A stretch of DNA of 64,000 nt from a virus. This document shows, piece by piece, positions 35,057 through 63,181 of the stretch (position 1 is its first letter; each line of letters begins with the position of its first letter). Location: the IMG/VR virus record IMGVR_UViG_3300012930_000003, positions 1 through 64,000 of that record. The stretch is one strand, 5' to 3'. Both the position numbers and the translations under genes were made by a program. The notes beneath the pieces are model-generated. The model did no database searches. It saw only the letters and a list, made by a program, of their open reading frames with translations, and was not told the DNA's origin.

Positions 35057-35319
35057 ACATCCGCAAAATCTTCAAGGCCAACTGCGGCCCCGGCGCGGTG
35101 TATCTCAGTTCCGAGATGCAACAGCGGGGCGAATACAATACCGTCGCGATCCAATTCGAGATGGTTCCGGAAGGGCGCAAGTTCACCCTCGACGGGGTCA
35201 TCCATGAAGGCGACGCGGATGCTGAGCTTGAGCGGGCGGTGCTGAAAATAGCGGCAATCGCCAAGAATATCCGGGCGCATATTGACCCTGACAGGCCGGT
35301 GGTGATGAATGGAGCTTAG
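35044..35319 (+). CDS. small alpha/beta protein
   Basis: 91 residues from ATG 35044; GTG 35053, giving the common GTGA overlap, is equally likely. FEMVPEGRKFTLDGVIHEGD and a C-terminal helix. Function unknown. Confidence 0.6.
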   Translation: MGSVNIRKIFKANCGPGAVYLSSEMQQRGEYNTVAIQFEMVPEGRKFTLDGVIHEGDADAELERAVLKIAAIAKNIRAHIDPDRPVVMNGA

Positions 35320-35647
35320 TCGACGTAATTTCCTGCGTGGGACAGCGGCGTGCGCGGTCGCTGCTGCGGTGCCGTTACCCGTATTGGCAGAAACCATCCC
35401 GCCGATATTTGATGGATATATCGGAACTTATAACGGCGTCATTATTCGTCAGGTCGAGAACCTTTATTGGGTGGATGTGCCCGGCACAGACATGGCGCTT
35501 CGCGGGTCGATGTCCGCTATTTCGCGGTGGGGTCGAGTTTTTGAGAAGAAAATGGCCGGGGTTTGCATTGACCCCGAGGATCGTCCATTGGACGGGTGGG
35601 AATACATCACGTCGCCAAACTATCGAGGGGAAGATGGGAATACGTGA
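35309..35647 (+). CDS. Tat-exported small protein
   Basis: 112 residues. ELSRRNFLRGTAACAVAAAV is a textbook twin-arginine signal (S-R-R-x-F-L-R), followed by AxA cleavage (PVLAETIP). The mature ~85 residues carry strands and two Trp (YNGVIIRQVENLYWVDVPG). Folded export of a phage protein is uncommon. It overlaps neighbours on both sides. The mature function is unknown; a surface or periplasmic action on the host is inferred. Confidence 0.78.
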   Translation: MELSRRNFLRGTAACAVAAAVPLPVLAETIPPIFDGYIGTYNGVIIRQVENLYWVDVPGTDMALRGSMSAISRWGRVFEKKMAGVCIDPEDRPLDGWEYITSPNYRGEDGNT

Positions 35648-35873
35648 ACTCGCCGCCGCGTTCAACGAGGTTTCCAGCCCCGATGCGACCTGCGTCAAGG
35701 CGCTGCTGGACTATAAGCGCGCCAGCGGAACGGAATGGCAATTGATCGTTTTCTCTGGTAACTACGCTGACGGCTCGCCGTTCGTTATTCAGTCGGAGCC
35801 TCAGCGTCCCGAAAGCAATCTTATTCTTGCATCACGGGAAACCGCTCGTAGTCTTTTGGCTCAAAAAGGATGA
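35634..35873 (+). CDS. small unknown protein
   Basis: 79 residues from ATG 35634. ELAAAFNEVSSPDATCVKAL, then strands (EWQLIVFSGNYADGSPFVIQ). Function unknown. Confidence 0.6.
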   Translation: MGIRELAAAFNEVSSPDATCVKALLDYKRASGTEWQLIVFSGNYADGSPFVIQSEPQRPESNLILASRETARSLLAQKG

Positions 35874-35877
35874 TGCG

Positions 35878-36189
35878 ATGGGCGTGGCACCAGACCAACA
35901 ACAGAATATCCAGACGATTACGCGCAATTTCACTCTTGCGGCTGGGGTCGCGGCCCAGATAGTGCCTGCGAACAACGGTCGAAGATTTCTGCTGATCCAG
36001 AATACCGGGATCAATCCGATGTCGATCAAGGAGGATGCTGCTCCGGTTGCGGCCGGCGGAATGAGTTTTGACCCCGCCTCCTCTGCTGGCGGCCAAGGCG
36101 GGAGCTGGAATCCAACCGAAGTTGTGCCGACTAATGCCTATTGGGCGATATCCACCGTGGGGACGACCGTCATCACGATGGAGGGCTAG
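35878..36189 (+). CDS. small virion beta protein, decoration-like
   Basis: 103 residues from ATG 35878. TRNFTLAAGVAAQIVPANNG, RRFLLIQNTGINPMSIKEDA and a final strand (VGTTVITMEG) follow the pattern 'R..l.iqNtG..p..i' of small phage head or fibre proteins. Similar small beta proteins appear at 37459, 46753 and 50795. Confidence 0.7.
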   Translation: MGVAPDQQQNIQTITRNFTLAAGVAAQIVPANNGRRFLLIQNTGINPMSIKEDAAPVAAGGMSFDPASSAGGQGGSWNPTEVVPTNAYWAISTVGTTVITMEG

Positions 36190-36192
36190 GCC

Positions 36193-37404
36193 GTGGTCAT
36201 CCGTCCGGCCGGGCCGGGACCGATCGGGATATCCTCGGTGCATCGGCCTGGGCCTCGCGGCGTTGCGGATGCATTGCCGAGTGCTCTGCTCTGGGGATTG
36301 GGTCCGCTGATTGGCCTATCGATCTTCAAGGCGGCACTGGCCCGGGTTCGGGCTGGGACTGGGCGCGGAAAAATCGTCGTCATTGGCGATTCGACCAGCA
36401 TGGGTGCTGCGGCCGGAACGAGCGGAACATCCAATCTAAACGGCGCGGCGCAGAAATCGTGGCCGCAGGGATTACACCGCTTCAACAGCGCGCCGAATTA
36501 TCTCTCGTCAAATTCGTGGTGGGGTACGCAGGGGTATGACAGCGCTGCTGGTATCACACTGACCAACTATGACACCCGATTGGCGCAGGGCGCGAATTGG
36601 AATCCGAACCTGACCTCGCTTGGCGGCAAGGTCATCCGCTACGCTTCTGGTGCAGCCAATAATTTCTCGTTCACCCCAACCTTTGCTTTCGATACGTTCA
36701 TCCCGTATTTTCTGAAAAATAACGGCAATGGAACCTGTACGGCGAATGTCGATGGCGGATCGTCGTTGGGGACAATCAACACCAATTCCGGCGGCGCGCT
36801 GGTATGGGCGAACCAGACCTTTACGACCACGAAAGCCATCCACCAAATCAATCTGGTTCCGAACAACGATGCTCAAATGTTTTTCGGTGGCATCCTTTGC
36901 TATGACAGCACGGTTCCTGCGATCGACGTTATCCAAACCGCCGTTTATGGCTCAATCGCATCCACATTCACGCCTGCCGTCAACGTCTACGATGCGATCA
37001 ACACGCTGAAATTCATCGCGCCGGACCTGACCATCATCGATTTGACCATCAATGACAGCAACAACGGGACCGCGTTGGCGACCTATTCCGCCAATCTGCA
37101 AACCATCATCACGGCGGCGAAGGTGAGCGGCGACGTGCTGCTGATGGTTGGTCCTCCGAGCAATACGACGCAGGCCACGGACGGCACGCTGGACACTTAT
37201 ATCGCCGTTCTGAATACGCTCTGCGCGACCAATAAGTGCTCGCTGGTGAATATGAAAGCGCTTTGGGGCAGCTACGCCAATATCCAGCCGACGTTCCCTT
37301 ATCTCGATACGCTGCATCCGCTGGCGGCTGGCCATCAGGGTCCGCCGGCAAACGGATATCCGGACCTCGGGACGGCGGTGGCTAATTTGCTGGCTCGCGC
37401 TTAG
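36193..37404 (+). CDS. SGNH/GDSL hydrolase, likely surface-glycan esterase
   Basis: 403 residues from GTG 36193. Block I is IVVIGDSTSMGAA with Ser67 as nucleophile; block III is TINDSNN; block V is YLDTLHPLAAGHQ with the D-x-x-H dyad. SGNH hydrolases remove acyl groups from carbohydrates or lipids. In phages they are found in tail or spike proteins that deacetylate capsule or O-antigen. There is no signal peptide. It precedes two signal-bearing fibre-like genes, so a receptor-modifying role is likely. Confidence 0.88.
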   Translation: MVIRPAGPGPIGISSVHRPGPRGVADALPSALLWGLGPLIGLSIFKAALARVRAGTGRGKIVVIGDSTSMGAAAGTSGTSNLNGAAQKSWPQGLHRFNSAPNYLSSNSWWGTQGYDSAAGITLTNYDTRLAQGANWNPNLTSLGGKVIRYASGAANNFSFTPTFAFDTFIPYFLKNNGNGTCTANVDGGSSLGTINTNSGGALVWANQTFTTTKAIHQINLVPNNDAQMFFGGILCYDSTVPAIDVIQTAVYGSIASTFTPAVNVYDAINTLKFIAPDLTIIDLTINDSNNGTALATYSANLQTIITAAKVSGDVLLMVGPPSNTTQATDGTLDTYIAVLNTLCATNKCSLVNMKALWGSYANIQPTFPYLDTLHPLAAGHQGPPANGYPDLGTAVANLLARA

Positions 37405-37458
37405 ATTTTGTCAAATCGTGGTATATGCCTTGAAACCGAACGGCTGGAGATGACCAAA

Positions 37459-37824
37459 ATGCGGAAAATTATATCGTGGGTTATTGCCGCGCTCGTTTGG
37501 TGGGGGGCGGCTGGCGCGGCGATGGCGACGGACTGCTCTGGGACAATCACATCGGGCGGGACGGCGCAGGCCATAACCGGCATCAACGGCAACGTTCGCG
37601 GCCTGATGCTTATGAACAACTCCGCAAATCTCATGTGCGTGTCGTTCAATGGATCGGCGGCGACCATTGCGGGCACGAACTGCGGCGCTGGGTCATGGAC
37701 ATTGGGGCCGGGAACAGCAACTGTTGCTGGGCAGTCGTTCTCGACGCCAGTCAATATCACGATCAGCACGGCCTCGATTATCTCGTCGACCACGGGCGAT
37801 CGGTTTTCATGCGAGCGTCAGTGA
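37459..37824 (+). CDS. small beta protein with Sec signal
   Basis: 121 residues from ATG 37459 (GGAGA spacing favours it over ATG 37450). KIISWVIAALVWWGAAGAAM is a Sec signal with cleavage at AMA. The mature part is Gly/Thr/Ser-rich beta (CSGTITSGGTAQAITG, GLMLMNNSANLMCVSFNGSA) with paired cysteines, resembling fibre or decoration proteins. Its stop overlaps the glycine-rich gene (TGATG). Presence of a signal on such a protein is unexpected. Confidence 0.72.
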   Translation: MRKIISWVIAALVWWGAAGAAMATDCSGTITSGGTAQAITGINGNVRGLMLMNNSANLMCVSFNGSAATIAGTNCGAGSWTLGPGTATVAGQSFSTPVNITISTASIISSTTGDRFSCERQ

Positions 37825-38846
37825 TGCGCAAGTCGCTTGCCCTTTTCCTCGTCTGCTGGGCATCGATTGCGGAGGCGCAGTTTGGCGGGTCGATTGGGCT
37901 GCCTGGATTTAAAGGCCTCGGAGGCCCGGGCTTTGGCGGGGGCGGCGCTGTTGCTGCATCCTGTACACCGGGTTCGCAGGTATTTTTATCCTCTGGGACT
38001 TTTAACCCCGGCGCTTGCACTACAGCTACCTTCTCAGCCATCGGTGAAGGTGGCAACGGTGCTGCCGGGAATACATCATCACTCTCTGGCGGCGCGGGTG
38101 GGTCAGGTGCGTATTGTTCGGCCTCTGTAAGTGTCACGCCCAACGTTGATATAAGCATTGTTATTGGAACGGGCGGGACGGGAACCAATACAACCGTCAC
38201 TGGCAAGAATATCGTTGCCGGCGCTGGAGCCAATGCAAGTAACGGAACAGGTGGGGCTAATGGATCGTCTGCCGCTTGTACCGCCGCTGCTGCTACAGCT
38301 AGAAACGGCATCAATGGAAGGAATTCAACAGTAAGTCGCCCTACTCCGGGAGGCAGTGGCGCCGCAGGTCCAAGTACATCGGGTTTTGCGGGGGGGTCTC
38401 CTTTTACTGGCGGTGCAACTGGCGGCACGGGGGGCGGCGGTGCAGGGACTAGTGGTTCAGCTGGTGTTGCTACATCGACCATTAATGGTGGTAATGGCGG
38501 TAACGGTGCCAATGGTACGGGTGCTGGGGTTGGCGGTATTGGCGATGGCACTGCGGGTGGTAATGGAACCTCTCCAGGGGCGGGTGGTGGTGGTGCAGCG
38601 GGGTCGATTATCGCAACTGCGGCAGTTGGTGGAAATGGGGCTGCGGGCACAGACGTTGACGGGTCTACGATCGGTGCGGGCGGCGGTGGTGGGGGTGGTG
38701 GGTCAGAAGACACAGGATTAAATGGCGGCGGTGGGGGTAATGGCGGGACCTGCGGAGGAGGAGGCGGCGGCGGGGGCCGTGGGATTGTAGCGGGTGGCAA
38801 TGGCGGTGCTGGCGCTCCCGGTTGCGTTCTCGTGACGTATCCCTGA
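37824..38846 (+). CDS. glycine-rich adhesin-like tail protein with Sec signal
   Basis: 340 residues from ATG 37824. KSLALFLVCWASIAEAQ is a Sec signal with AEA cleavage. A short Cys-containing domain (AASCTPGSQVFLSSGTFNPG) precedes about 210 residues of Gly-rich repeats, and the protein ends with CVLVTYP. Glycine-rich arrays ending in 'vlV.Y' are seen in phage fibre tips, where they can fold as polyglycine-II bundles that bind receptors. Long open antisense frames here are composition artefacts. Confidence 0.8.
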   Translation: MRKSLALFLVCWASIAEAQFGGSIGLPGFKGLGGPGFGGGGAVAASCTPGSQVFLSSGTFNPGACTTATFSAIGEGGNGAAGNTSSLSGGAGGSGAYCSASVSVTPNVDISIVIGTGGTGTNTTVTGKNIVAGAGANASNGTGGANGSSAACTAAAATARNGINGRNSTVSRPTPGGSGAAGPSTSGFAGGSPFTGGATGGTGGGGAGTSGSAGVATSTINGGNGGNGANGTGAGVGGIGDGTAGGNGTSPGAGGGGAAGSIIATAAVGGNGAAGTDVDGSTIGAGGGGGGGGSEDTGLNGGGGGNGGTCGGGGGGGGRGIVAGGNGGAGAPGCVLVTYP

Positions 38847-38926
38847 TGCGCGGCGCCATCGCCATGAACTTCGCGCTTTGGGCCATGATTGTGATAGCGT
38901 TCGGCAAGTGGTATTCGATAATTTAA
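38846..38926 (+). CDS. 26-residue membrane peptide
   Basis: ATG 38846 overlaps the glycine-rich gene stop (TGATG). MRGAIAMNFALWAMIVIAFG, then KWYSII, is one hydrophobic helix. Function unknown. Confidence 0.4.
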   Translation: MRGAIAMNFALWAMIVIAFGKWYSII

Positions 38927-38943
38927 TTACAACGGAGCATCAA

Positions 38944-39507
38944 ATGGGCGGTCATCTTCTCGCATCGGTAAATCCGGAAGCTGCGGACCTTATCCAGCCA
39001 GCCGCACCGCGCCCTCGCCTGCCGGGCGTCGGCCAAACCGTCGTGTACCATATGCGTCGCGGCCACGGTCGGAACGGTCGGACCTCGTTTCCGGCGCTCG
39101 TACAGGGTCACGGCGAGCGCGATACGCTGATGCTGACGGTCATCATCGACGCTGGGGATATGGTCGACGAGCAATTCGTTGAGATGATCGGCCCCGGCAA
39201 GGATGATGGGCATTGCTGGGAATGGCCGGAGGGCGTGCGGCCGCTGGCGGAGCGGCTTGATGAGCCGGCCGGGCTGCGGTCACTAGTGAACGAACTGGAT
39301 GAGCAAATGGGCAGGATGCATCAATGCGTCCTCGGCGAATTTGAGGCACCGAAAGTCTCGATCATCCACATCATGCAGGATTTCGAGTCGCGTCTGCGTG
39401 CGGTGAAGGCCGAAAACGACGAGTTGCGGGCCAATCTTTTGTCTGCGGCCGATGTGCTGCCAGCGCCGCGTAACGGCAAAACCAAGGCGCGCGGGAAGAA
39501 GAAATGA
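38944..39507 (+). CDS. unknown 187-residue protein
   Basis: ATG 38944 follows GGAGCATCAA. A beta-rich first half with VGQTVVYHMRRGHGRNGRTS (SH3-like?) and a C-terminal coiled coil (FESRLRAVKAENDELRANLL) with a basic end (TKARGKKK). Upstream of the portal; possible head-assembly factor. Function not recognised. Confidence 0.75.
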   Translation: MGGHLLASVNPEAADLIQPAAPRPRLPGVGQTVVYHMRRGHGRNGRTSFPALVQGHGERDTLMLTVIIDAGDMVDEQFVEMIGPGKDDGHCWEWPEGVRPLAERLDEPAGLRSLVNELDEQMGRMHQCVLGEFEAPKVSIIHIMQDFESRLRAVKAENDELRANLLSAADVLPAPRNGKTKARGKKK

Positions 39508-39659
39508 GCGACGCCCGGCCGTTTGTTTTACGCAGGCGTCGCGAATCAATCACGGCCGAAGAGGTAATCAAGAAATTGCAGGAATTGGGCGGCGATCCGG
39601 TAACGGTCAACAAGATCGAGATAGCTATCGCAGCAATCCAAGATGGGAATGGTCGGTAA
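39504..39659 (+). CDS. 51-residue helical protein
   Basis: ATG 39504 overlaps the preceding stop. MSDARPFVLRRRRESITAEE then VIKKLQELGGDPVTVNKIEI is natural-looking. It ends one base before the portal start. Function unknown. Confidence 0.6.
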   Translation: MSDARPFVLRRRRESITAEEVIKKLQELGGDPVTVNKIEIAIAAIQDGNGR

Positions 39660-39660
39660 A

Positions 39661-42045
39661 ATGGCTGCTCGCGGTGAAATATTGGATGACGTCGAATATC
39701 GGGACATGACCGATAAAGGCGACGATTATTTCACGGCCCAAGGCAAATCCATCGACAAAGACGCGGATGACTGGAATTCCGAGAGTTCGGCGACCGACGC
39801 CGACGATATCCAGGCCCGTCCGGTTTCCCTGCTCGGCCCGCGCGACAAGTTCATGATCCTGCAGCGGTGGTGGTATTCGGACGCGGACCAATCGGCCAAT
39901 TGGCGCTCGCAGGCCACGGATGACCTCGGTTTCGTCGCTGGCGAGCAACTGACCGATGAGGACAAAGCCATTCTTGACGCTGCGAACCGCCCTCACGTCG
40001 TTTTCAACCGGGTGCTGACGATCATCAAGGCCATCGCCGGCATGGAAATCAACGGCCGGCATGAAATCGTGTTTCTGCCTGAGGAAAACGACGACACGAT
40101 GGTTTCGGAAATCCTGTCGGGAACATCGAAATGGATGGGCCAGAAGTGCGACGGTGAGGACGAGCAGTCGGAGGCTTTCCAGAAGTGCGCCATTACCGGC
40201 ATCGGCGTGACGGAATCCCGCTGGACCTATGAGTATGGGGCCAAGGGGAAATACGTCGAGGAGGAATTCGACTGCCGGGAGTTCTTCTGGGACCGGACGG
40301 CGAAGAAAAAGAACCTTGTTGACGCCCGGCGCATGGCTCGGGTTCGGCGGATGCCGCTTTCGGATGCCATGCAGATGTTTCCCGGCAAGTCGCGCCGTGC
40401 TCTTGATGCGTCGTGGGCGGACGCCGGGATTTATTACGATAGCGGGCCGCGATCGATCGAGGAAAAGCGCATTCGCGACGGCAAGAACTCATACCTCGAT
40501 TGGGACGATACGAACGAAGTCACCATCGTCTGTATGCAGTGGTGGGAGCGTGAGCCGTATTACATGGTTGCCGACGAGCAATCGCAGGAAATGGTCGAGA
40601 TGTCGCCGAAGGAATTTCGGACGCTGGACCGTATGCGCAGGTTGGCTGGCCAGCCGCGCCTTGACGGTGTGAAGATGACCAAGCGGGCCTATAAGCAGGC
40701 GTTCCTTGGGAATGAATATCTCGGGGGCGGCAAGGCGCCGCTGGGCCAGCAATTTAGCTGGGGCGTCATTACCGGCGAGTGGGATGCGAAAAAGCGGATG
40801 TGGTTCGGCCTGACGCGCGTGGTCCGCGACCCGCAGATGTGGGCCAACAAGTTCATGGCGCAGGTCATGCACATCATGAATTCGACGGCCAAGGGCGGTA
40901 TCCTGGCGGAGCGGGACGCCTTTGACGACGAGTTGGAGGCCGAGGAAGGCTATGCGATGGCGGACACCATCACATGGCTCAAGAACGGCGCGCTGAGCCA
41001 AGGCAAAAACCCCAAGATTATGCCCAAGCCCGGCCAAGGCGACGCCTCGGCCTATGTGGCGCTCCTGCAATACGCCGTGACGGCCATTCCGCAGGTTACG
41101 GGGGTCAATTTCGAACTGCTCGGCCAGCAGGACATGCAGAACCCGGGCGTTGTCGAGGCGATGCGCAAGCAGGCCGGCATGACGGTGCTGGCGACGCTGT
41201 TCGATGCTTTGCGGCGGTATCGGAAGATAATCGGCCGGATGCGGCTGGACGTGATCCAGCGGCGCATGAGCGACGGGCGGATTATCCGGATTGTCGGGCC
41301 GCAATATACCGGCGCGGTGCGGCTGGCGAAGGATGTCACGGCCGGCGAGTACGATGTGACCGTTGACGACGCGCCGACGTCGCCGAACCAGAAAGAGGCG
41401 AACTGGCTGATTATTTCGTCGCTTATCCCGGTGTTCAAAGATCAATTGATGCAACAGCCCGAATTGCTGGCGATGATCCTCGAATACTCGCCGCTTCCTG
41501 CTCCGTTGGTGGCTGCGTTCAAGCGGATTGCGCTCGCTCCGCCCGATCCAGCGAAGGCTGCGGAGCAGCAGAAGGCCAAGGAATTGATGGTCGCGAAGGT
41601 TCTGGCTGAGATCAGCAAGGACGATTCGATTGCGAACATGAATAACGCCAAGGCCGGGGCGCAGCAGGGCACGGCGGCCTACGATCTGGCGATTGCGCAG
41701 AATATGCAGCACGACAATGCGTTGCAGCGTGGGAAACTGTTAATTGACGCCAAGAAGGGCGATGCCGAGGTCGGCTTGATCCACGCCAAGGCGGCGCGGG
41801 AGGCGGCCGGCATTCACCACGACACGGCGTCAAGCGCGGTGGATATCCTCAACGCCCGAACCAAGCATATCGAGGCGACGGACAAGATGCACACAAACCG
41901 CGTCGGGGCGCTGAGTGACCATATGGCGGCGACGGCTGGGGTGCACCACGATTTGGCTGCGGCGTTCCAGAAGCGGGTTGCGGGGATGGTCGCGGCGCGG
42001 ACGCCGATTGTTGATCCGAACAAGCAGAAGGCATCAAATGGCTAA
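39661..42045 (+). CDS. portal protein, P22 gp1-like
   Basis: 794 residues from ATG 39661 (39643 is an alternative). MILQRWWYSDADQSANWRSQ, FNRVLTIIKAIAGMEINGRH, and AFQKCAITGIGVTESRWTYE follow the P22-type portal pattern; FDCREFFWDRTAKKKNLVDA is the wing region. The C-terminal ~200 residues are helical (barrel-like, Ala/His/Lys-rich). P22 gp1 is 725 residues, so this is slightly longer. Twelve copies form the DNA channel and the docking site for terminase and the short tail. Confidence 0.92.
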   Translation: MAARGEILDDVEYRDMTDKGDDYFTAQGKSIDKDADDWNSESSATDADDIQARPVSLLGPRDKFMILQRWWYSDADQSANWRSQATDDLGFVAGEQLTDEDKAILDAANRPHVVFNRVLTIIKAIAGMEINGRHEIVFLPEENDDTMVSEILSGTSKWMGQKCDGEDEQSEAFQKCAITGIGVTESRWTYEYGAKGKYVEEEFDCREFFWDRTAKKKNLVDARRMARVRRMPLSDAMQMFPGKSRRALDASWADAGIYYDSGPRSIEEKRIRDGKNSYLDWDDTNEVTIVCMQWWEREPYYMVADEQSQEMVEMSPKEFRTLDRMRRLAGQPRLDGVKMTKRAYKQAFLGNEYLGGGKAPLGQQFSWGVITGEWDAKKRMWFGLTRVVRDPQMWANKFMAQVMHIMNSTAKGGILAERDAFDDELEAEEGYAMADTITWLKNGALSQGKNPKIMPKPGQGDASAYVALLQYAVTAIPQVTGVNFELLGQQDMQNPGVVEAMRKQAGMTVLATLFDALRRYRKIIGRMRLDVIQRRMSDGRIIRIVGPQYTGAVRLAKDVTAGEYDVTVDDAPTSPNQKEANWLIISSLIPVFKDQLMQQPELLAMILEYSPLPAPLVAAFKRIALAPPDPAKAAEQQKAKELMVAKVLAEISKDDSIANMNNAKAGAQQGTAAYDLAIAQNMQHDNALQRGKLLIDAKKGDAEVGLIHAKAAREAAGIHHDTASSAVDILNARTKHIEATDKMHTNRVGALSDHMAATAGVHHDLAAAFQKRVAGMVAARTPIVDPNKQKASNG

Positions 42046-42199
42046 TATTCCTGACGACGTTTTGGAGAAAGTGGCATCGGCGCTGACGGCGGCCGTTGGC
42101 ATTACGATGGTTCACGCCAAGGAAATGAACAAGAAAATGCTTGATGCGTCCATCGCGTTGGACGATGCCATCAATGCGGAAGATGCCGACGACGAATGA
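42038..42199 (+). CDS. 53-residue helical protein
   Basis: ATG 42038 within the last codons of the portal; stop overlaps the next start. MANIPDDVLEKVASALTAAV and an acidic tail. Function unknown. Confidence 0.6.
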   Translation: MANIPDDVLEKVASALTAAVGITMVHAKEMNKKMLDASIALDDAINAEDADDE

Positions 42200-42576
42200 T
42201 CCGTTCCCACTCCGCACTACTCCGCCACGCGCAGGATTTCTTCGCCGCCGAACTAGTCGGCCTATACCGCTGGGACCGAGTGACGATTGCCGAGCCGGAG
42301 CGGATGCCTGCCATCCCGTCGAATGCCGAATACCGCGACCGTCGGCGGATGATGGAAGAACGCGAGGGGCGGGGGAAATACCTCGAACAGGTCCGGATAT
42401 TGTTCAAGCCGTGGGAAATTCTGGTTTACTCGTCGATGGAGCGTCCTCCGCTTGGCGAGGTTTTGCTGCGGGACTTCGACAGCACGCAAACGCTGGTTGA
42501 GGGACCGCTCGACTCGGCCACTTGGTCGAAAATCGGAAATTGGATAAGATCGCATCAACAGAGGATTGCATCATGA
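42196..42576 (+). CDS. unknown protein
   Basis: 126 residues, ATGA overlaps on both sides. Central basic helix (EYRDRRRMMEEREGRGKYLE) followed by strands (ILFKPWEILVYSSMERPPLG). Function unknown. Confidence 0.7.
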   Translation: MIRSHSALLRHAQDFFAAELVGLYRWDRVTIAEPERMPAIPSNAEYRDRRRMMEEREGRGKYLEQVRILFKPWEILVYSSMERPPLGEVLLRDFDSTQTLVEGPLDSATWSKIGNWIRSHQQRIAS

Positions 42577-43097
42577 GGAAACCGATTTTATGTCTCGACT
42601 TTGACGGCGTGCTGCACAGTTATTCGAGCGGATGGAAAGGCGCTGATGTGATCCCCGATCCGCCGACCGATGGCATGGCCGCTTTTCTGGATAAGGCGGT
42701 TGATTTTTTCGATGTGCAGATATTCAGCAGCCGCACGCATCAGCCCGGCGGCGTCGACGCCATGAAGCGATTTATTTGGGACGCCCTCGCTCATCATTTT
42801 GACTGCCCGTTCGCTGGCGATCCTCGCGGCTTTGATCGTGCACTTGCTGTGCGCGACGCCATTTCATACCCAACCGAGAAGCCTGCGGCCATGGTATCTA
42901 TCGACGACCGGGCGCTCTGCTTTACCGGCAATTGGGCCGATTTCGATCCGCAACGCCTTTTGGAGTTTCAGCCATGGAACAAGTCAAAGTCACTTGGTTC
43001 GACCATCAACGTGAGCCGCAGTGCGACCCTAATCCGGCGTATCCAGACGGCATTGATGTTGATCTTCGCGCCAAGTCGGGCGCGCGGGGCTGCGTAA
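42573..43097 (+). CDS. HAD-superfamily phosphatase-like protein
   Basis: 174 residues from ATG 42573. Motif I is LCLDFDGVLHS with two Asp (nucleophile and acid), motif II lies near VQIFSSRTHQPGG, and MVSIDDRALCFTG supplies the terminal acidic pair. Phage HAD proteins of this type end at about residue 135, 'FqPWNK', and here FQPWNK is present but the frame runs on for ~35 codons over the next gene. Substrate unknown; nucleotide or polynucleotide phosphatases are the usual guess. Confidence 0.82.
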   Translation: MRKPILCLDFDGVLHSYSSGWKGADVIPDPPTDGMAAFLDKAVDFFDVQIFSSRTHQPGGVDAMKRFIWDALAHHFDCPFAGDPRGFDRALAVRDAISYPTEKPAAMVSIDDRALCFTGNWADFDPQRLLEFQPWNKSKSLGSTINVSRSATLIRRIQTALMLIFAPSRARGAA

Positions 43098-43234
43098 CTG
43101 ATCTGCCATATCCGGCCCCGCGTTGCGGCATATATCTCGTTGTCTGCGAAAAATGCGGGTATTCTGCCGCGATCACGACTGCGGGCCGTGTTGATGATCC
43201 GAAAAAGGTCACGCTGCCCTGCAAGCTGAATTAG
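42974..43234 (+). CDS. small conserved zinc-type phage protein
   Basis: 86 residues. KVTWFDHQREPQCDPNPAYP, then LVVCEKCGYSAAITTAGRVD and VTLPCKLN, is a pattern repeated in phage proteins next to portal/scaffold genes. A zinc site from CxxC plus other Cys is likely. It overlaps the HAD 3' end by 124 nt. Confidence 0.7.
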   Translation: MEQVKVTWFDHQREPQCDPNPAYPDGIDVDLRAKSGARGCVTDLPYPAPRCGIYLVVCEKCGYSAAITTAGRVDDPKKVTLPCKLN

Positions 43235-43254
43235 CACCGAAGGAACCGCATCAA

Positions 43255-44502: not shown

Positions 44503-44759
44503 CCGTCGACTGGGAATTGCTCGGATATTGCCTCGCCATGGTCGGGGCGGTGGTGGCTATGCTTTGGCTGCGTCCTCGGTGGGACACGGGCGGCGGCGCG
44601 CTGATGATATTCGCGCTGGGGATTATCGGCGCTCCGATTTGGACAGTGTTGCTGGCCCTCATCTGTCTATGGGGGCTGATTTACATGACCGCCACGCTCG
44701 CATGGTATATTTTCGTCGCGCCGTTTATCTGGCTGTATCGCCATCGGCGGGCGGCGTGA
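44499..44759 (+). CDS. small membrane protein
   Basis: 86 residues from GTG 44499. Two to three hydrophobic helices (LLGYCLAMVGAVVAMLWL, ALMIFALGIIGAPIWTVLLA, and ICLWGLIYMTATLAWYIFVA). Its place between scaffold and coat genes is odd for a membrane protein. Function unknown. Confidence 0.65.
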   Translation: MTVDWELLGYCLAMVGAVVAMLWLRPRWDTGGGALMIFALGIIGAPIWTVLLALICLWGLIYMTATLAWYIFVAPFIWLYRHRRAA

Positions 44760-44899
44760 TCGAATACATCGCCATTAAGGTCACCAAGGCCATTCTCATC
44801 ACATTCGGAATCCTGATCGGCGTTCCCTACGTTCTGGCGCTGATCGGGCTGGCGAGGGTCGCGGACCGCGCTGGGCGGCGGCGATATCGGAGAGTTTAA
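44756..44899 (+). CDS. 47-residue membrane protein
   Basis: GTG 44756 overlaps the preceding stop (GTGA). MIEYIAIKVTKAILITFGIL then IGVPYVLALIGLARV is one long or two short helices with a basic end (DRAGRRRYRRV). Function unknown. Confidence 0.55.
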   Translation: MIEYIAIKVTKAILITFGILIGVPYVLALIGLARVADRAGRRRYRRV

Positions 44900-44924
44900 C
44901 CGCACCGGACGGCTCCAACCTTGG

Positions 44925-44949
44925 CGGCCTCAGAAACGGGGCCGTTTTT
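44925..44949 (+). terminator. rho-independent terminator before coat gene
   Basis: CGGCCTC, loop AGAAAC, GGGGCCG, then TTTTTCTTT. A 7-bp stem (one T-G pair) with a good T-run ends the transcripts from the portal-scaffold region. Confidence 0.8.
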
Positions 44950-44958
44950 CTTTGGGCG

Positions 44959-44987
44959 TTGACGAAACAATATTACACGGCTATATC
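44959..44987 (+). promoter_or_regulatory. strong sigma70 promoter for the coat gene
   Basis: TTGACG at 44959-44964, a 17-nt spacer and TATATC at 44982-44987. Matches are 5/6 and 4/6 with ideal spacing. It starts 10 nt after the terminator and leaves a leader of about 170 nt before the coat ATG. Confidence 0.7.
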
Positions 44988-45096: not shown

Positions 45097-45126
45097 AACC
45101 GATGCACCTCCACAAAATTTGAGCTT

Positions 45127-45164: not shown

Positions 45165-46280
45165 ATGTCAACGACCAATTTCCCGCAAAATGACGCCCTT
45201 GCGGTAAAACTCTGGGCGCGGGTTCTGGAAACGGAAGCCCTCAAATACACCGCCATTCGGCCACTCATCGGCAGCGACGAAAATTCCATCATCCATCTGC
45301 AGAACGCCTTGAGCAAAGGCCCGGGCGATCAAATCACCTACGCCATCGTCATGCAGCTTGCGCAGGCTGGTTTCACCGAAAACCAACTGGCCGAGGGCAA
45401 CGGCGAGGCGCTAACGACCTATTCCGACGCTCTGGTCATCAACGAACTGATGGGCGTGGTCGGCGTCAAGTCCCGCCGGACCATCGACCAGCAGCGCGTG
45501 CCGTGGGACCTCCGCGACGTGGCCAAGGGCCGACTCCGCGACTGGTACGCCAAGCGGTATTCGGTCGAGTTCTTCAATCAGGTGTGCGGCTACACGCCTC
45601 AGGGCGATGCCCGATACACTGGCCTGAATGGCGTCACGGCGCCGTCGGCAACGCGCATTATTCGCCAGTCCGGCCGCGCGTCGGACGATCTTCTTACCTC
45701 GGCGGACACGTTCACCCTCGGCCTGATTGACGCGGCGAAGGAGGCGGCTATTACGGCTTCCCCGATGCTTCGGCCGATCCAGTACAAGGGCACGTCGATG
45801 CGGGAGGGCGGGCGTTCTGACTTCAACAACGCCCTTGAGGACATGTTCTGCATGTACCTCCATCCGTATCAGGTTACGGCGATGCGCCGGAACACGTCGA
45901 CCGGCCAATGGCAGGACTTGCAGAAGGCGGCCTATATGGGCCTGCGCCAGACCGGCAACCCGATCTTCTCGGGCGCGATCGGCATTTACAACGGCGTCAT
46001 TCTGCGCCAGGCGTTCGATGTCACCAATGGCGTCTCGGCGGCTGGCGCCGACGTGTCGACGGTCAAGCGGGCCGTGCTGCTCGGTGCGCAGGCTGCCATG
46101 ATGGGCTTTGGCCAGGACAACGGCCCCACCAAGATCACTTGGAACGAGGAACTTTTCGACCACAAACGGCGGTTGGAGATTTCCGCGCTCACCATCCACG
46201 GGATGAAAAAGACCCGGTACAATGCGGTGGACTACGGAACGATCGTCGTTTCGACCTACGCCGCTGCGTCAACGTTCTAA
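45165..46280 (+). CDS. major coat protein, N4-gp56 family
   Basis: 371 residues from ATG 45165 with AAGGTG upstream. The order NDALAVKLWARVLETEALKY, GPGDQITYAIVMQLAQAGFT, LAEGNGEALTTYSDALVINE and VPWDLRDVAKGRLRDWYAKR is the N4-gp56-type coat pattern; the rest is an HK97-like alpha/beta fold by family knowledge. Hundreds of copies form the head. Its own promoter explains high expression. Confidence 0.93.
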   Translation: MSTTNFPQNDALAVKLWARVLETEALKYTAIRPLIGSDENSIIHLQNALSKGPGDQITYAIVMQLAQAGFTENQLAEGNGEALTTYSDALVINELMGVVGVKSRRTIDQQRVPWDLRDVAKGRLRDWYAKRYSVEFFNQVCGYTPQGDARYTGLNGVTAPSATRIIRQSGRASDDLLTSADTFTLGLIDAAKEAAITASPMLRPIQYKGTSMREGGRSDFNNALEDMFCMYLHPYQVTAMRRNTSTGQWQDLQKAAYMGLRQTGNPIFSGAIGIYNGVILRQAFDVTNGVSAAGADVSTVKRAVLLGAQAAMMGFGQDNGPTKITWNEELFDHKRRLEISALTIHGMKKTRYNAVDYGTIVVSTYAAASTF

Positions 46281-46752: not shown

Positions 46753-47094
46753 ATGCCTTTTACCCAAATTATCGACGGACTGCAGACCAACCAAGAGACA
46801 GGTTCTACGGCCGCGAACCTGTCGTCAGGTCTGACCTCGATCATCTCATCGACGGCGGCGCAGGCTTATGCTCTGCCGGCGCCGTTCCCCGGCCTGATGA
46901 AGACGATCGTCAAGACTTCATCGTCGACTGCGGTGCAGACGGTTTCGGCCACGGCTGGCGGCAGTACGTCCACCATCGGTCTCACCGGGGTTACGCTGAC
47001 ATTCAGCGCGGCGGATCAGTCCGTGATTCTGATGGGCGTGGCGGCGAACAAGTGGCAAATTGTTTCCAATGTGGGGTCGGTTACGGTATCCTGA
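46753..47094 (+). CDS. small beta-type virion protein
   Basis: 113 residues from ATG 46753. Ser/Thr/Ala-rich strands (TAVQTVSATAGGSTSTIGLT, GVTLTFSAADQSVILMG). Similar in design to 35878 and 50795. Possibly a head protrusion or fibre piece. Confidence 0.7.
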   Translation: MPFTQIIDGLQTNQETGSTAANLSSGLTSIISSTAAQAYALPAPFPGLMKTIVKTSSSTAVQTVSATAGGSTSTIGLTGVTLTFSAADQSVILMGVAANKWQIVSNVGSVTVS

Positions 47095-47810: not shown

Positions 47811-48305
47811 ATGCTGAAACGCCTCCTGCCGTCCATCATCTTCGCGCTGGGCCTGATCGGTGCGGCGTATGCCGTGAATATCACCGGCACCAATACCGCG
47901 AACGAAAACTCCGTCGTGAAGATGGGTTACGAGCGGCTTTCGGTGACGGACGCGATCACGGCCTTTGCTGGGGGAGGGCAGACCAGCGCGGTCCTGCTGG
48001 ATTCGGGATACAATCGGGTCACCACCGTCGCGTCCGGAAACGATAGCGTCAAACTGCCGTCCTGCCATACCGGGGCGATCAGCGCCGGCCAATTGCCTGC
48101 GGGGCAGATTTCCGGCAATACGATTGGGTTGATCGTATGGGTCACCAACGCCGCTGCATCGAACTCGATGAACGTCTATCCGCAGACGGGCGAGTCGATC
48201 AACGCCATCGCCGCGAACAGCCCATACGCGATGGCGGCAAACAAAACCTCGGCTTTCATCTGCTCGCCGGCCGGAACGATTTGGTATTCGCTGCTTGGAT
48301 CATAG
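47811..48305 (+). CDS. virion-type protein with Sec signal
   Basis: 164 residues. MLKRLLPSIIFALGLIGAAY is a Sec signal, cleavable after AYA. The mature part is beta-rich with a repeated style (TSAVLLDSGYNRVTTVASGN, GLIVWVTNAAASNSMNVYPQ), and ends in WYSLLGS. Similar beta proteins without signals decorate tails or heads of other phages. The signal is the odd part. Confidence 0.75.
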   Translation: MLKRLLPSIIFALGLIGAAYAVNITGTNTANENSVVKMGYERLSVTDAITAFAGGGQTSAVLLDSGYNRVTTVASGNDSVKLPSCHTGAISAGQLPAGQISGNTIGLIVWVTNAAASNSMNVYPQTGESINAIAANSPYAMAANKTSAFICSPAGTIWYSLLGS

Positions 48306-57442: not shown

Positions 57443-57575
57443 GCTCAATGTGGCGTGCGATGGCGTACAAGATGAGGATCATGGTAAGACCGGCCATCGG
57501 GCCGCCGAAGTGAACAAGGCCGATGGCGGCGGATTTCAAGGCGAGTAGCAGGACTAAAAGCAGGAATATGAGCAT
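57384..57575 (-). CDS. possible leftward membrane protein
   Basis: 63 residues on the opposite strand. MLIFLLLVLLLALKSAAIGL then FGGPMAGLTMILILYAIARH make two helices, and a Pro/Glu tail ends it. It fills the gap between 57442 and 57568 where no rightward gene is visible, but overlaps the end of the ejection protein gene by 59 nt and lacks a clear ribosome site. Confidence 0.4.
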   Translation of the reverse strand: MLIFLLLVLLLALKSAAIGLVHFGGPMAGLTMILILYAIARHIEPTAAPPQPQPARPEPEFGS

Positions 57576-58083
57576 GTCCGCAGTTAAGCGCCGGAAACTT
57601 CCCAGTCAAGATCGGCTAAAGCATCTTTTTGATTACGATCAAGGGACTGGGTTTTTGATTCGGAGGGTAAATGTCAGCAATCAAAAGGCTGGGGAAAGGG
57701 CTGGTAATTTTTGCGCAAAAAGTGGCTATCGGGCCATATCTATTGACGGAGGCCAGTACAGAGAAGCCAACGTTATATGGGCGTGGATGACAGGGGTTGA
57801 TCCTTCGGGCATTGTCGATCATCGGGATTTGGTTCGAGATAACAATGCATGGGTCAATTTGAGGCTTGGCACTCAATCACAAAACGTCGCCAATAGCCCA
57901 GTTCGAACAACCAATATTCTTGGCGTGAAAGGTGTGAGCAAAAAGCGCGGAAGGTTTAGGGTGCAAATTACAGTAGACGGAGAGAACCATCATCTCGGCA
58001 CTTTTGATACGGTTGAGGAAGCGTCATCGGTGCGCATGGCTAGGGCGAAAGAACTGTTCGGCGAATTCGCGAGGCTCGCATGA
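57568..58083 (+). CDS. HNH homing endonuclease with AP2 domain
   Basis: 171 residues from ATG 57568 (AGGA upstream). SQDRLKHLFDYDQGTGFLIR, GIVDHRDLVRDNNAWVNLRL, and GTQSQNVANSPV form the HNH core (D-H ... N). The C-terminal GVKGVSKKRGRFRVQITVDG, HHLGTFDTVEEA is an AP2-type DNA-binding domain. The gene is visibly AT-richer than its neighbours and overlaps the lysozyme start (ATGA). A mobile insertion. Confidence 0.9.
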   Translation: MSMSAVKRRKLPSQDRLKHLFDYDQGTGFLIRRVNVSNQKAGERAGNFCAKSGYRAISIDGGQYREANVIWAWMTGVDPSGIVDHRDLVRDNNAWVNLRLGTQSQNVANSPVRTTNILGVKGVSKKRGRFRVQITVDGENHHLGTFDTVEEASSVRMARAKELFGEFARLA

Positions 58084-58787
58084 ATGGGTTGGAGACAGTT
58101 CGGGCTCTTATCGACAAGGGATACACGCCTGCGCAGGCGGCGGCTCTTGCTGGTCACGTCATGCAGGAAAGTGGGTTCGATCCATCGAATGTCAACAAAG
58201 GTGAGGATGCGCACGGGCTTGTGCAATGGCGCGGCGACCGCTGGCAAGGTTTGCAGGATTTCGCCAAAGCGCAAGGGAAATCTCCGACCGATCCCTTGGT
58301 GCAGATGGATTTCATCGGCCACGAAATGAGAGGCCCTGAGGCAAAGGCTGGCGCAGGGTTCATGGCGGCTCCCGACGTTGCGAGCGCCAGTGCGGCTCTC
58401 AAGCCCTATATTCGATATGCCGACCCAGGTGGTGCACAGACTGCCCTGCGGACGAATAACGCGGTCGGACTGCTGGCCCAATATAACGGCGGCGCGCCAA
58501 CTGCGCCGGTCGATCCGACCAATCCCGCCGATCCGACGCAATCTGTGGCCGCACCCGCCGCGCCGCTATCCATCGCGCCAGACGCGGCAACGCCCGTGGG
58601 CTCGCTGGCGTCGTCGCTGCAGTCGTTGGGCGGCAGTTTGGGCGGCGGCACTTCGGGCCAACCGGCGCAGCAACCGGCCGCGCCTGACTTCCTCGCGCCG
58701 CAGCAAATCGCCATGCCGCAGGCAAATACCGGACAATCGCAACAAATCGCCGCCGCCTTGGCCAAGATGTACGGAATCGGAGCATGA
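58080..58787 (+). CDS. tail lysozyme-like protein
   Basis: 235 residues. TVRALIDKGYTPAQAAALAG, HVMQESGFDPSNVNKGEDAH, GLVQWRGDRWQGLQDFAKAQ is the phage tail-lysozyme pattern, with E30 as catalytic Glu. It would open peptidoglycan at infection. The last ~90 residues are Pro/Ala/Gln-rich, ending KMYGIGA. ATGA overlap with the HNH gene upstream and the collar gene downstream. Confidence 0.88.
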   Translation: MNGLETVRALIDKGYTPAQAAALAGHVMQESGFDPSNVNKGEDAHGLVQWRGDRWQGLQDFAKAQGKSPTDPLVQMDFIGHEMRGPEAKAGAGFMAAPDVASASAALKPYIRYADPGGAQTALRTNNAVGLLAQYNGGAPTAPVDPTNPADPTQSVAAPAAPLSIAPDAATPVGSLASSLQSLGGSLGGGTSGQPAQQPAAPDFLAPQQIAMPQANTGQSQQIAAALAKMYGIGA

Positions 58788-59905
58788 AGATGAAATTGAT
58801 GCGCGGACGGCTGGTTGAATTTCTGATCCTGCTGATGGTGGCTATTGGCGCTGGGCCTGCTGGCGCGGCTCTGTGGCAATGGTCGACTACGGCTGGCCTC
58901 AACGGCAACAGTGACCCAACTATCAATTTTGCGGAAGGCCAAGCCCCATCATCGCTGAATGATAGTGCGCGTGCCCTCATGGCGGCGGTCGCAGTCAACA
59001 TCAAGGACACCAATGGCCAAATCACATCTGGCGGCACAATTGCGGCGCTCACCCTAACGACGAATACCGTTTTCCCGAGCGCATCCGCCTTGGTTGGGCA
59101 GGCGATCACCTTCATTGCCGGCACAGGCAACGGTGCGGGTGCAACGCTCAATATCGACGGGACCGGCGCGCTTGCGATCTTTATCGATGGTGTCAACGGG
59201 GCCGTGCCCGCGAATACCATCACGGCAGGCGGCATCTACACCGTGACGAACACGGGCGGCCTTTATCGGCTGCATTCCGTCTACAACAACCCCTATAATA
59301 CGGCGCTCGGAAGTATTCTTTGGTCAACGCTTTCGACCGCGCCAAATGCGAACTTCGTTCTTGCAAACGGGCAGTGCCTCTCGACGACGACCTATTCGGT
59401 CTACTGGGTTGCGCTCGGGTCTCCGGCTAGCGGGGCGTGCGCTGGCGGGTTTTTTCAAATCATTGACTTGCGCGGTCGCGTTGTCGCCGGATTGGATACG
59501 CTCGCCGGAACTGGCGCGGCGGGACGCCTCACGTCGTCTGCGACGGGTTGCGGCACGGCAATGACGACGGTTGGAGCGGTCTGCGCGAACGGCCTTGAGG
59601 GCTACTCTCTCACTGCCGCGCAAATTCCATCGATCACAGCGGCAAACGCCAGCGTTTCTCTCAGTGTGAGCACCACCACAAACAACTGGGTTGCGGGCAA
59701 TACGTCGGATAGCACTGCGGTCAGCGCGGGTGGGGCTGGAACGGCATATACGGTTTCAACGGCCGTTGGCCCTGTCGTTTCCAAGCAGCCGGCATCTGGT
59801 AGCGCGACGGGCTCCGTATCGGTGACATCCAACAATACCAGCGGCGCCGTGCATCCTGAGGTGCAGCCGACGATCGGTCTCGTTCCTTTCTTGCGGGTGA
59901 TTTGA
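58784..59905 (+). CDS. tail-collar domain protein with N-terminal signal
   Basis: 373 residues. The start VEFLILLMVAIGAGPAGAAL is a signal or anchor. Residues ~180-250 (FVLANGQCLSTTTYSVYWVA, GFFQIIDLRGRVVAGLDTLA) fit the phage tail-collar domain, and a Ser/Thr-rich C-terminal beta region ends in PEVQPTIGLVPFLRVI, the typical 'P.....fiIR.' end of collar fibres. The signal is unusual for such a protein. Confidence 0.82.
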   Translation: MKMKLMRGRLVEFLILLMVAIGAGPAGAALWQWSTTAGLNGNSDPTINFAEGQAPSSLNDSARALMAAVAVNIKDTNGQITSGGTIAALTLTTNTVFPSASALVGQAITFIAGTGNGAGATLNIDGTGALAIFIDGVNGAVPANTITAGGIYTVTNTGGLYRLHSVYNNPYNTALGSILWSTLSTAPNANFVLANGQCLSTTTYSVYWVALGSPASGACAGGFFQIIDLRGRVVAGLDTLAGTGAAGRLTSSATGCGTAMTTVGAVCANGLEGYSLTAAQIPSITAANASVSLSVSTTTNNWVAGNTSDSTAVSAGGAGTAYTVSTAVGPVVSKQPASGSATGSVSVTSNNTSGAVHPEVQPTIGLVPFLRVI

Positions 59906-60327
59906 TGCTGGTTCAAACCAATCTACGGGTGCACCCAACGGCGGCGGCTCGGAACATTTACTATGAGGCTGCGGCTCCGATCACGGCCAACAATGTGCAG
60001 GATGCGATTGAGCAGGCTGCGGCCAGCGGCGGGGCGTCGATAACGCCGACGAACATTGCCATCGGGCAGTCGCCCTACACGGTGCTGGCGGCCGATCGGT
60101 ATATCCGGGTGGATACATCCGGTGGCAACGTCACCATTAATATGATGCCGTCAGCCGCTCGCAATGGCCTTGATGTTGAAATCAAGAAGGTCACCGCAGA
60201 TGCTAATTCGGCTTCCGCCGTCCGTAATGGTGGAGAGGACATCGACGGCATCGTGTCATATCCAATCGATTCGCCGCTGCTTGCGGTGAGGTTCATGCCG
60301 AGGGCAAATGGCTATGATGTTGTTTAG
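59905..60327 (+). CDS. small fibre-associated beta protein
   Basis: 140 residues (TGATG overlap). NIYYEAAAPITANNVQDAIE is the phage-fibre 'yy.aaapitatnvqdAi' motif that joins units. Then YTVLAADRYIRVDTSGGNVT and a beta domain. It overlaps the spike gene by 20 nt. Probably a spike adaptor. Confidence 0.75.
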   Translation: MLVQTNLRVHPTAAARNIYYEAAAPITANNVQDAIEQAAASGGASITPTNIAIGQSPYTVLAADRYIRVDTSGGNVTINMMPSAARNGLDVEIKKVTADANSASAVRNGGEDIDGIVSYPIDSPLLAVRFMPRANGYDVV

Positions 60328-63181
60328 GAAACTTCGCTCGTCATTGTCTGCACTCGCAACGTCCCTCGCCGTTGCGGGTATGATGCTATCGCCTGTGCTT
60401 GCTCAACAGGGTATCCAATTCCCGACAGGAACCATCTACGGCAACGACACGGCGTCAACGCGATCTGGCAAGACAGCCACGATGTCGTCGATGTTCGACC
60501 GCGCCTATTGTTCGACGGTCGGCTATGTGATTGCCCGCACCATCGGAACTTGGACGTGCTCGCAGAATATCCCGGTCAAGGCGTCCTATTACGGCGCCAT
60601 CTGCGACAGCGCGACGACGACATTTGCAGCGAAACTGCAAGATGCCGTAACGGCTGCGCAGAACGCTGGCGGCCTTCCGGTTGAATTGCCGCCGCCTGCC
60701 ACCGTCGGCGCGAAATGCATTCACACAACCAGCGTGTGGACGAACATCTGGGCTGGCGCTGGCGTCTTGGCCGCGCCTGGAATGGACATCCGTGGCGTCG
60801 ACCGTGATGTGACCGTGCTCGATACCCGCGTGGTCGGGTATGCGTTCGCGACCAATCCGGATTGGCAGTCGGCTTATAAATCGCTCTACCTTTCGACGGT
60901 CGGGGCTGGCGGCGTTCTGGCGTCTGGAACCTACTACGTCCAGATTACAATGACCGACCCGTCCGCCAACGAGGTATTGGTGACATCGGCAGAGCCGTTC
61001 ACCGTCCCCGCTACGGGTCGGGTGACATTGCCGCTGCAATCGGTCCATACCGGATACTGCTACAACATCTATATTTCCGCTTCTAGCCTGATGACATCCT
61101 CAAGTTACGGGAAGATCAGTGGCTCCGATGCAATCTGCTTGGGCGGAAACCAGAGCGTCAATCTGACCGATTTTGGCACGGCTCATGCGGTTCCGACCAA
61201 TAAGGTCGCGGTCTGGCAGCAAGCCAATTTCGAGAAATTCTCGATCACAAATCCCACCGCAGTAGCGGGGGCAAACTGCCTGAGTATTTTCAAGGTCGCG
61301 TATACGACCGTCGACAAGTTCTATTGCTCCAGCGTCGTCGATGGCATCGATATTCTGACCTATTTCGGCGATGCCGATGGCAGTTTCAACGTCAAGATTA
61401 CCCAATCTAAATTCAACGGCGTGAGCGGATGGGGCATTAACGGCGCTGGCGCGGCGGCGGGCCTGTCCTACCTCTTTGTGGAAAACGTAATCTGCAATCT
61501 CTGCGGAACGCTGCCGGCGAACTATTTCCCGCCATCCCTTTATGGCTCTGGATTTGGAATCAGCACGATCTCGCGCGCCAGCCCGAACGTGATGACGACG
61601 ACGGCTCCGCATACGCTGCAGACCAATGACGAGATTTACATTACCGGCGTCTTTGGCAGCATGACGCAGCTTGTGAACGGCTGGTATCGCGTCAACGTGA
61701 CTGGGGCATCGACACTCAACCTTGAGGATTTGGTTACCGGAACGATCATCGATACCTCAGGGTTCACGCCATATACGACTGGCGGCGCATTCGCGCTGGC
61801 ATGGCGTCCTCCGACACAGACGACGGGATCGGGAGGGTTTGCATGGGGCGGCCTTTCCGCAACCTTCAAGCATTCCGGGTGCACACAGGCAAACGGCACA
61901 TGCTTCTACGCTACCGAGGTTGTCGGGTCGAACAATCTGAAACTGGATAATTTCACGGCCGAAAATACGCTCGGCAAGGGGTATTACATCGGGTCTCTGG
62001 CCGGCGGTGAATTCTCCGGCATCGAGGTATTGAGCGCGGTGGCCTATGGCCAGACCCATGCCGGGATGCAACTCGGCACCGGCTTTGCCGCCGGCGGGGT
62101 TTCAAACGTCACCGTATCCAGCGCCAAGGTACGGTCGGATGTGACGATTGCCATTGGGTTCGAGCAATTCCGAAACACGAACAATCCCACGGCGTTCACC
62201 GATTCAAACCGCGTCCGGAACGTCACTTGGACAACGTACGACCTTGCGGCAACGCAAGAGCGGTTTCGGGCATTTACTTTTGATCCGATCCCGGGCCAAG
62301 TTCAGCTTTCGATATCGGCGGTCAATACCGCACAGCTTATCCCCGTTGGATATGGCGGCTGCCTCCCGATTCATCTCAAGGCAACGGGTGAATGGGTTTG
62401 CGTTCGTGTCCCGAGCGCGGGTGTCACTCAAGCCGGCATTGGCGGGCTTTCGGCGACCACCACTTATCAACTCTACGCCTACAACTCGGCTGCGACCAAT
62501 GCGCCATATGCCATTTCGATGGAGGTAAGCGCTACTGGCGTGGCTCTTGATGCCGCTGGATATTATGTGAAATCCAGCGATAGCACGCGGACTTTCGTCG
62601 GGCAGGCGAGGACCGATGGCAGCGGAAATTTCCAGACATCTGGAACGCAGAGCACTCTTTTCCCGATCCAGTCCACCGTTCCGATTGTAACGACCGCTGG
62701 TGCGGTGTCATGTCCGACATGTGCGGTGACTGGCACCACTATTACCGGAGCATATGGCATCACCGGAGGCGGCGATCTTTCGGCCAACCGAACGTTGGGC
62801 GTCAACCTCACTACGGCCGCCAACTCCATCGGCGGCAACGTCGCCATGAACAATACGGCGAACTATTTCGATGGTCCCAGCATGGCGCAGGGCACCACTG
62901 GGACATGGTGGGCTTCCGGTACGGTTACTGTCACAGATACTGCGGCGACCGCGAATATCGTTTGCAAGCTTTGGGACGGGACAACCGTAATCGATAGCGG
63001 TTCTCTGACCACGGCCACGATTGGCCAAAACGCGACTATGACGCTATCGGGAACGCTGGCCAGTCCGGCCGCGAACATGCGCATGTCGTGCCGGGATATT
63101 TCGGCAACCACTGGTCTGATTTTGAGTGGGGCGAGCGGCAACACCAAAGACAGCACAATCACAGGCGTTAGAATTCAATAA
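60308..63181 (+). CDS. large beta-helix tailspike with Sec signal
   Basis: 957 residues. The N-terminus has FRKLRSSLSALATSLAVAGM then MLSPVLAQQ, a clear Sec signal. Residues ~85-300 resemble the start of a pectate-lyase-like spike (AKLQDAVTAAQNAGGLPVEL; VDRDVTVLDTRVVGYAF). The middle is a right-handed beta-helix by pattern (SFNVKITQSKFNGVSGWGIN, GLSYLFVENVICNLCG), and the C-terminal ~180 residues are beta-rich. No glycosidase residues can be assigned. It probably binds or cuts host surface polysaccharide. The signal peptide is unexpected. Confidence 0.85.
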   Translation: MAMMLFRKLRSSLSALATSLAVAGMMLSPVLAQQGIQFPTGTIYGNDTASTRSGKTATMSSMFDRAYCSTVGYVIARTIGTWTCSQNIPVKASYYGAICDSATTTFAAKLQDAVTAAQNAGGLPVELPPPATVGAKCIHTTSVWTNIWAGAGVLAAPGMDIRGVDRDVTVLDTRVVGYAFATNPDWQSAYKSLYLSTVGAGGVLASGTYYVQITMTDPSANEVLVTSAEPFTVPATGRVTLPLQSVHTGYCYNIYISASSLMTSSSYGKISGSDAICLGGNQSVNLTDFGTAHAVPTNKVAVWQQANFEKFSITNPTAVAGANCLSIFKVAYTTVDKFYCSSVVDGIDILTYFGDADGSFNVKITQSKFNGVSGWGINGAGAAAGLSYLFVENVICNLCGTLPANYFPPSLYGSGFGISTISRASPNVMTTTAPHTLQTNDEIYITGVFGSMTQLVNGWYRVNVTGASTLNLEDLVTGTIIDTSGFTPYTTGGAFALAWRPPTQTTGSGGFAWGGLSATFKHSGCTQANGTCFYATEVVGSNNLKLDNFTAENTLGKGYYIGSLAGGEFSGIEVLSAVAYGQTHAGMQLGTGFAAGGVSNVTVSSAKVRSDVTIAIGFEQFRNTNNPTAFTDSNRVRNVTWTTYDLAATQERFRAFTFDPIPGQVQLSISAVNTAQLIPVGYGGCLPIHLKATGEWVCVRVPSAGVTQAGIGGLSATTTYQLYAYNSAATNAPYAISMEVSATGVALDAAGYYVKSSDSTRTFVGQARTDGSGNFQTSGTQSTLFPIQSTVPIVTTAGAVSCPTCAVTGTTITGAYGITGGGDLSANRTLGVNLTTAANSIGGNVAMNNTANYFDGPSMAQGTTGTWWASGTVTVTDTAATANIVCKLWDGTTVIDSGSLTTATIGQNATMTLSGTLASPAANMRMSCRDISATTGLILSGASGNTKDSTITGVRIQ

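Follow-up and report, generated by a model that had tools for sequence, protein, structure and literature searches.

Virion proteins of tailed phages are, in the textbook view, assembled wholly in the cytoplasm, and export signals at the N-termini of fibre- and spike-like proteins in a phage genome raise the question whether such signals are genuine and what they would mean for the virion. The stretch analysed, here called the window, comprised 64,000 of the 65,245 bases of IMG/VR virus record IMGVR_UViG_3300012930_000003. A 7.1-kb record identical to the window covered both its end and its start, and the genome is therefore circular or permuted. The window encodes a P22-like portal, a Phage_capsid_3 capsid protein, a terminase, a gp10-like protein and ejection-type proteins; the pairing of P22_portal with Phage_capsid_3 and a virion module starting with the portal are those of P22-like short-tailed phages. 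Small proteins with hydrophobic segments stand in a row at 269-1670, possibly a lysis cassette, and the two of them that were tested gave no Pfam match. The phage presumably lyses its host cell.

Relatives were collected by searches with the portal, the collar fibre and the 47811 product, complemented by a wider collar search, and whole records were taken. The group numbered 17 phage records including the window, the identical fragment not being counted (window, G001-G006, G008-G010, G012-G019), and was classed as podovirus-like soil phages. Capsid identity to the window ranged from 54 to 98%. Record G005 has no capsid gene and probably represents, with G001 from the same sample, one of two halves of a single genome. 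The capsid gene of G018 (8431-10632; L309) is interrupted, lying in three pieces with inserts of about 0.3-0.8 kb and one stop; introns, insertions or decay are possible causes. A query of 397 Hyphomicrobiales genomes with the capsid protein and one spike-type protein returned only capsid cousins of 21-50%, and no convincing signal-bearing gene was seen in the short regions surrounding five of the nearest ones.

Signals were scored on predicted starts with a rule of our own, based on a basic charge of the n-region, a hydrophobic uncharged core and small residues at positions -3 and -1. All six N-termini named in the preliminary description were present at their coordinates and passed the rule (Table 1), five with Sec/signal peptidase I-like architecture and the one at 35309 with a Tat signal. 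Sequences resembling ribosome-binding sites lie upstream of 37459, 47811, 58784 and 60308, and the starts at 37824 and 35309 overlap the preceding gene. The view that six signals exceed chance was borne out: only 11 of 997 internal methionine positions passed the rule, and among 100 virion-region coding sequences of the cultured phages Paracoccus KLEP18-1, Rhizobium RHph_Y1_10, Ochrobactrum POI1126, Microcystis Mae-JY35 and Burkholderia BcepIL02 four passed under a lax rule, none convincingly (two membrane-protein-like products outside the structural run and two fibre N-termini that were borderline and lacked a clear Sec shape). A chance origin was rejected on these backgrounds and on the recurrence of signals in relatives.

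Table 1. Features of the window, with signals and predicted signal peptidase cuts.
Feature	Position	Strand	Signal	Predicted cut	Remarks
112-aa ORF with Tat signal	35309..35647	+	35309-35389		Pfam TAT_signal; not fibre-like
Small protein, family B	37459..37824	+	37459-37527	after MRKIISWVIAALVWWGAAGAAMA, before TDC	four mature cysteines
Glycine-rich fibre-like protein, family C	37824..38846	+	37824-37877	after MRKSLALFLVCWASIAEA, before QF	six mature cysteines
P22-like portal protein	39643..42045	+			profile match
Major capsid protein (Phage_capsid_3)	45165..46280	+			defines phage group
Signal-less cysteine-free protein	46753..47094	+			window only; approximate position of family H of relatives
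Small beta-rich virion-type protein, family D	47811..48305	+	47811-47873	after MLKRLLPSIIFALGLIGAAYA, before VN	mature VNITGTN
Lysozyme/tail-type protein	58080..58787	+			precedes collar fibre
Tail collar fibre, family E	58784..59905	+	58784-58867	after MKMKLMRGRLVEFLILLMVAIGAGPAGA, before ALW	mature from ALWQWSTTA
Signal-less protein between collar fibre and spike	59905..60327	+			position conserved
Large spike-like protein, family F	60308..63181	+	60308-60403	after MAMMLFRKLRSSLSALATSLAVAGMMLSPVLA, before QQG	18 mature cysteines

The description of the six products as tail-, fibre- or spike-like held for the five virion-module proteins and failed for 35309. This ORF starts with MELSRRNFLRG, which contains an SRRxFLK-like motif followed by a mild hydrophobic core, and was matched by Pfam TAT_signal at 29.8 bits (cutoff 22.7). 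Over 58 residues its mature part weakly resembles the major capsid protein (39.7%; E about 1e-4, from a small database), and a capsid-like stretch, PIF.G.IG.YNGVI.RQ, was seen there. The ORF occurs only in the window genome and was absent from all group relatives; it stands apart from the fibre proteins.

Export signals on virion-module genes are a trait of the group. The 16 relatives show them again, both on homologous virion-module genes and on unrelated ones, some of which have no similarity to genes of the window. Signal-bearing family B homologues were found in G001, G006, G008 and G009, and the family C homologue of G001 (21956-22993) has a signal and six cysteines; both families lie near a GDSL-type protein. 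In several relatives the collar cassette is followed by a signal-bearing counterpart of the family F spike, and family H, encoded in relatives beside the capsid-side family D gene, is signal-bearing with 2 or 4 cysteines. Record G009 carries a run of seven signal-bearing fibre-type genes with one gap of about 0.6 kb (33747-43840; L279, L280). Two genes of this run exceed 960 residues.

Mature cysteines were counted over all families after false signals (cytosolic enzymes, membrane proteins, lipoproteins) had been removed by hand from the automatic families. The 81 signal-bearing proteins comprised 68 with even, 3 with odd and 10 with zero cysteines, a count that includes related proteins, so that p-values over sequences overstate independence, and in which hand curation had reduced the odd cases from 10 to 3. 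The cut site of family 11 was re-set by hand. By family, 24 of the 27 with cysteines were even throughout, compared with an even count in 58% of the signal-less proteins that have at least two cysteines (p = 5e-4). The density of mature cysteines was 1.93 per 100 aa in signal-bearing versus 0.85 in signal-less proteins. Exceptions to parity were the family F spike of G012, with 9 cysteines, and a spike-like protein of G014 with a Tat signal, with 13. The latter (28297-29562; L291:9297-10559) also gave a sub-threshold pectate-lyase-like match. An even number of cysteines is generally taken as a sign of an oxidised, exported protein; the preference is well documented in E. coli and was also observed in B. 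pseudomallei (PMC7678975). The coupling of even mature cysteines to a signal found here is that of disulfide-type exported proteins.

The collar fibre, family E, allowed the closest comparison of signal-bearing and signal-less forms. Across the group the cassette order is lysozyme, collar fibre, the 59905 protein and spike, and each of the 16 group records with a collar-fibre gene has just one, in the same cassette whether signalled or not. By alignment, the 58784 product is clearly homologous over the whole protein to collar fibres and is therefore taken to work like one; its four cysteines are at residues 198, 219, 256 and 267. In a set of 136 non-redundant homologues, 121 had no signal and 15 had one, two of the latter (L041, L114) being assigned by eye because of an unusual cut site. 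Signal-bearing forms contained 2, 4 or 6 mature cysteines, always even (mean 4.0), whereas signal-less forms averaged 1.3, with an even count in 29 of the 92 having any. Fisher tests of signal against cysteines gave p = 3e-7 and 5e-12, values that overstate the case, since the sequences are related and few independent events are involved. All signal-bearing rows of the tree belong to a single clade of 19 rows (98% SH-aLRT), in which four signal-less rows, with 2, 0, 0 and 1 cysteines, are interspersed; the tree forces at least two (2-3) changes of signal state, and contrasts within the clade agree in direction with the whole set. In the alignment, four cysteines flank the collar segment of signal-bearing forms, while signal-less forms have ordinary collar sequence, from which the collar segment of the former is judged to be remodelled around the cysteines. 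Pfam Collar (PF07484) was matched by the signal-less homologues L031, G003 and L033 and was not detected in the two signal-bearing forms tested, those of the window and G006.

The predicted cut of family E coincides with or lies near the start of its signal-less homologues. Their methionine precedes an anchor tryptophan by 4 residues in 57 rows, by 5 in 40 and by 6 in 17, and most signal-bearing forms can, as judged by eye, be cut 4 residues before it (GA/AIW, KA/AFW, QA/AMW, with the slash marking the cut); the automatic choice agreed with the eye in 5 of 14 and in the others fell on an A-x-A located a few residues further upstream. Cleavage would thus restore nearly the N-terminus of the cytoplasmic fibre.

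Family D genes adjoin the capsid genes in the group. Positions -3 and -1 are A-x-A in 13 of 13 copies while the signal sequence drifts, the residue at -2 is free (Y, R, H, M, Q, L or F), and most mature proteins would start with VN[IL][TS]GT. The cysteine pair of the 47811 product, residues 85 and 151, was found among 80 viral loci in 7 of 9 signal-bearing (one, L228, a doubtful signal call; another, L207, without cysteine) versus 0 of 71 signal-less copies, many of which have the second cysteine only. A structure model of moderate confidence (pLDDT 72) matched best the phage tailspike 24qj in the PDB (E 9e-4), followed by TSP4, a baseplate cup and a capsid spike, so that on the model family D has a fold of phage-spike/baseplate type. 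A more distant homologue on another viral contig (L267:2821-3339) has both signal and cysteine pair, and the trait may thus extend beyond the group. Siblings G014 (MVNPISGT...) and G017 encode family D proteins without signal and first cysteine, and their collar fibres have signals; G003, G018 and G019 encode signal-less collar fibres, and G003 and G019 retain signals on D-type proteins. The mixture of states within group members indicates that the switch is made separately for each gene in a single type of virion.

Homologues starting downstream of the hydrophobic segment had been proposed as grounds against the signals. Distant ones and some from siblings do start there, as would be expected if the true proteins began downstream and the hydrophobic stretch were an untranslated artefact of start-codon choice or chance. 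These homologues also have no cysteine set, which indicates that the signal was added in particular lineages rather than being the product of a misassigned start codon; moreover, the mature N-terminus of 58784 has no start codon, a ribosome-binding-like sequence precedes most signal starts, the signal architecture is conserved across relatives, and signal and cysteines are tightly coupled. We consider an artefact extremely improbable. Almost as improbable is a further proposal, that the N-termini remain uncleaved in the virion, serving as membrane anchors or as anchors at the tail tip. Hydrophobic helices could aid membrane contact, but the conserved small residues at -3 and -1 with a free -2, as in the 13 A-x-A copies of the 47811 family, a predicted cut that falls where signal-less homologues begin or close to it, and paired cysteines that make sense only in an oxidising compartment all disfavour retention. 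The reading of the signals as cleavable was, by contrast, strengthened by the preserved -3/-1 residues, the group-wide recurrence and the cysteine coupling, which make export very likely.

Export of the fibre and spike proteins and their disulfide bonding in the periplasm are highly probable on the strong sequence evidence, and it is somewhat more probable than not that they join the virion. They could instead act outside it, as shed decoys, receptor shields, superinfection blockers or free polysaccharide-degrading spikes. The export evidence fits such roles equally well, several of the proteins are large and spike-like, and as late-module products they would be plentiful at lysis. The virion of the signalled phages would, however, then have to do without a collar fibre that is single copy and has signal-less siblings in the same cassette, and the fold of family D is of phage-spike/baseplate type; a non-virion role is accordingly rated as unlikely, though far from negligible. 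The single copy and the shared cassette fit better with a virion fibre of altered maturation than with a separate secreted effector.

The explanation judged best as a whole, with somewhat better than even prospects, is that the proteins are exported, trimmed, oxidised in the periplasm and then attached to heads when the membrane is opened or the cell lyses. Late genes would yield preproteins with Sec, in places Tat, signals on fibre, spike and small virion-type proteins; Sec would export them and signal peptidase trim them, and the coupled cysteines suggest oxidation by Dsb in the periplasm. The folded proteins may wait there until lysis or holin-made lesions give them access to DNA-filled heads, to which they could attach through the same N-terminal docking part as cytoplasmic fibres. 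A two-compartment virion is given an even chance: heads and ejection proteins would be made in the cytoplasm, the periplasm would supply receptor-binding fibres, spikes and decorations with disulfide bonds, and the two would be joined only when lysis opens the membrane.

If this is true, how much receptor-binding protein is available is set by the Sec and Dsb machinery of the host, the timing of lysis is part of assembly, and fibres may be toughened by disulfides against soil conditions. A signal together with an even cysteine count, for which homologues lacking the signal serve as internal control, can be used as a simple sequence test on any phage set, and caution is advised with pipelines that discard signal-bearing genes from virion catalogues. 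Open-licence papers searched for signal peptides or periplasm in connection with tail fibres or virion proteins held no such report, which is weak evidence.

Among known systems, the PF07484 collar fibres of Hyphomicrobiales prophages and phages (e.g. WAX24428 of Bradyrhizobium phage ppBeUSDA76-2) share with the 58784 product the layout and the N-terminal domain (W.WSTTA..ADP.INWAEG..PS.VNDSARAMMA), but differ in having methionine at or near our predicted cut, no signal and no four-cysteine set. Searched against cultured phages, the 58784 product found signal-less fibres only, and the 60308 product, the 47811 product and two spike-type queries found no match. The nearest cultured relative by major capsid protein, Rhizobium phage RHph_Y1_10 (51% identity), has a relative of the collar fibre, but that protein is signal-less and the virion-region coding sequences are without convincing Sec signals. 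In filamentous phages, the periplasmic domains of G3p contain disulfides. According to PMC8310372, the G3p of M13/fd is made as a preprotein whose signal sequence is Sec-dependent. Filamentous phages are assembled at the membrane and extruded, whereas the present group has a P22-like portal and terminase and is presumably lytic. By the criterion of PMC7678975, signal and even cysteines are shared with the DsbA substrates of Gram-negative bacteria; those are envelope and secreted proteins of the host, whereas here the proteins belong to the virion module of a phage.
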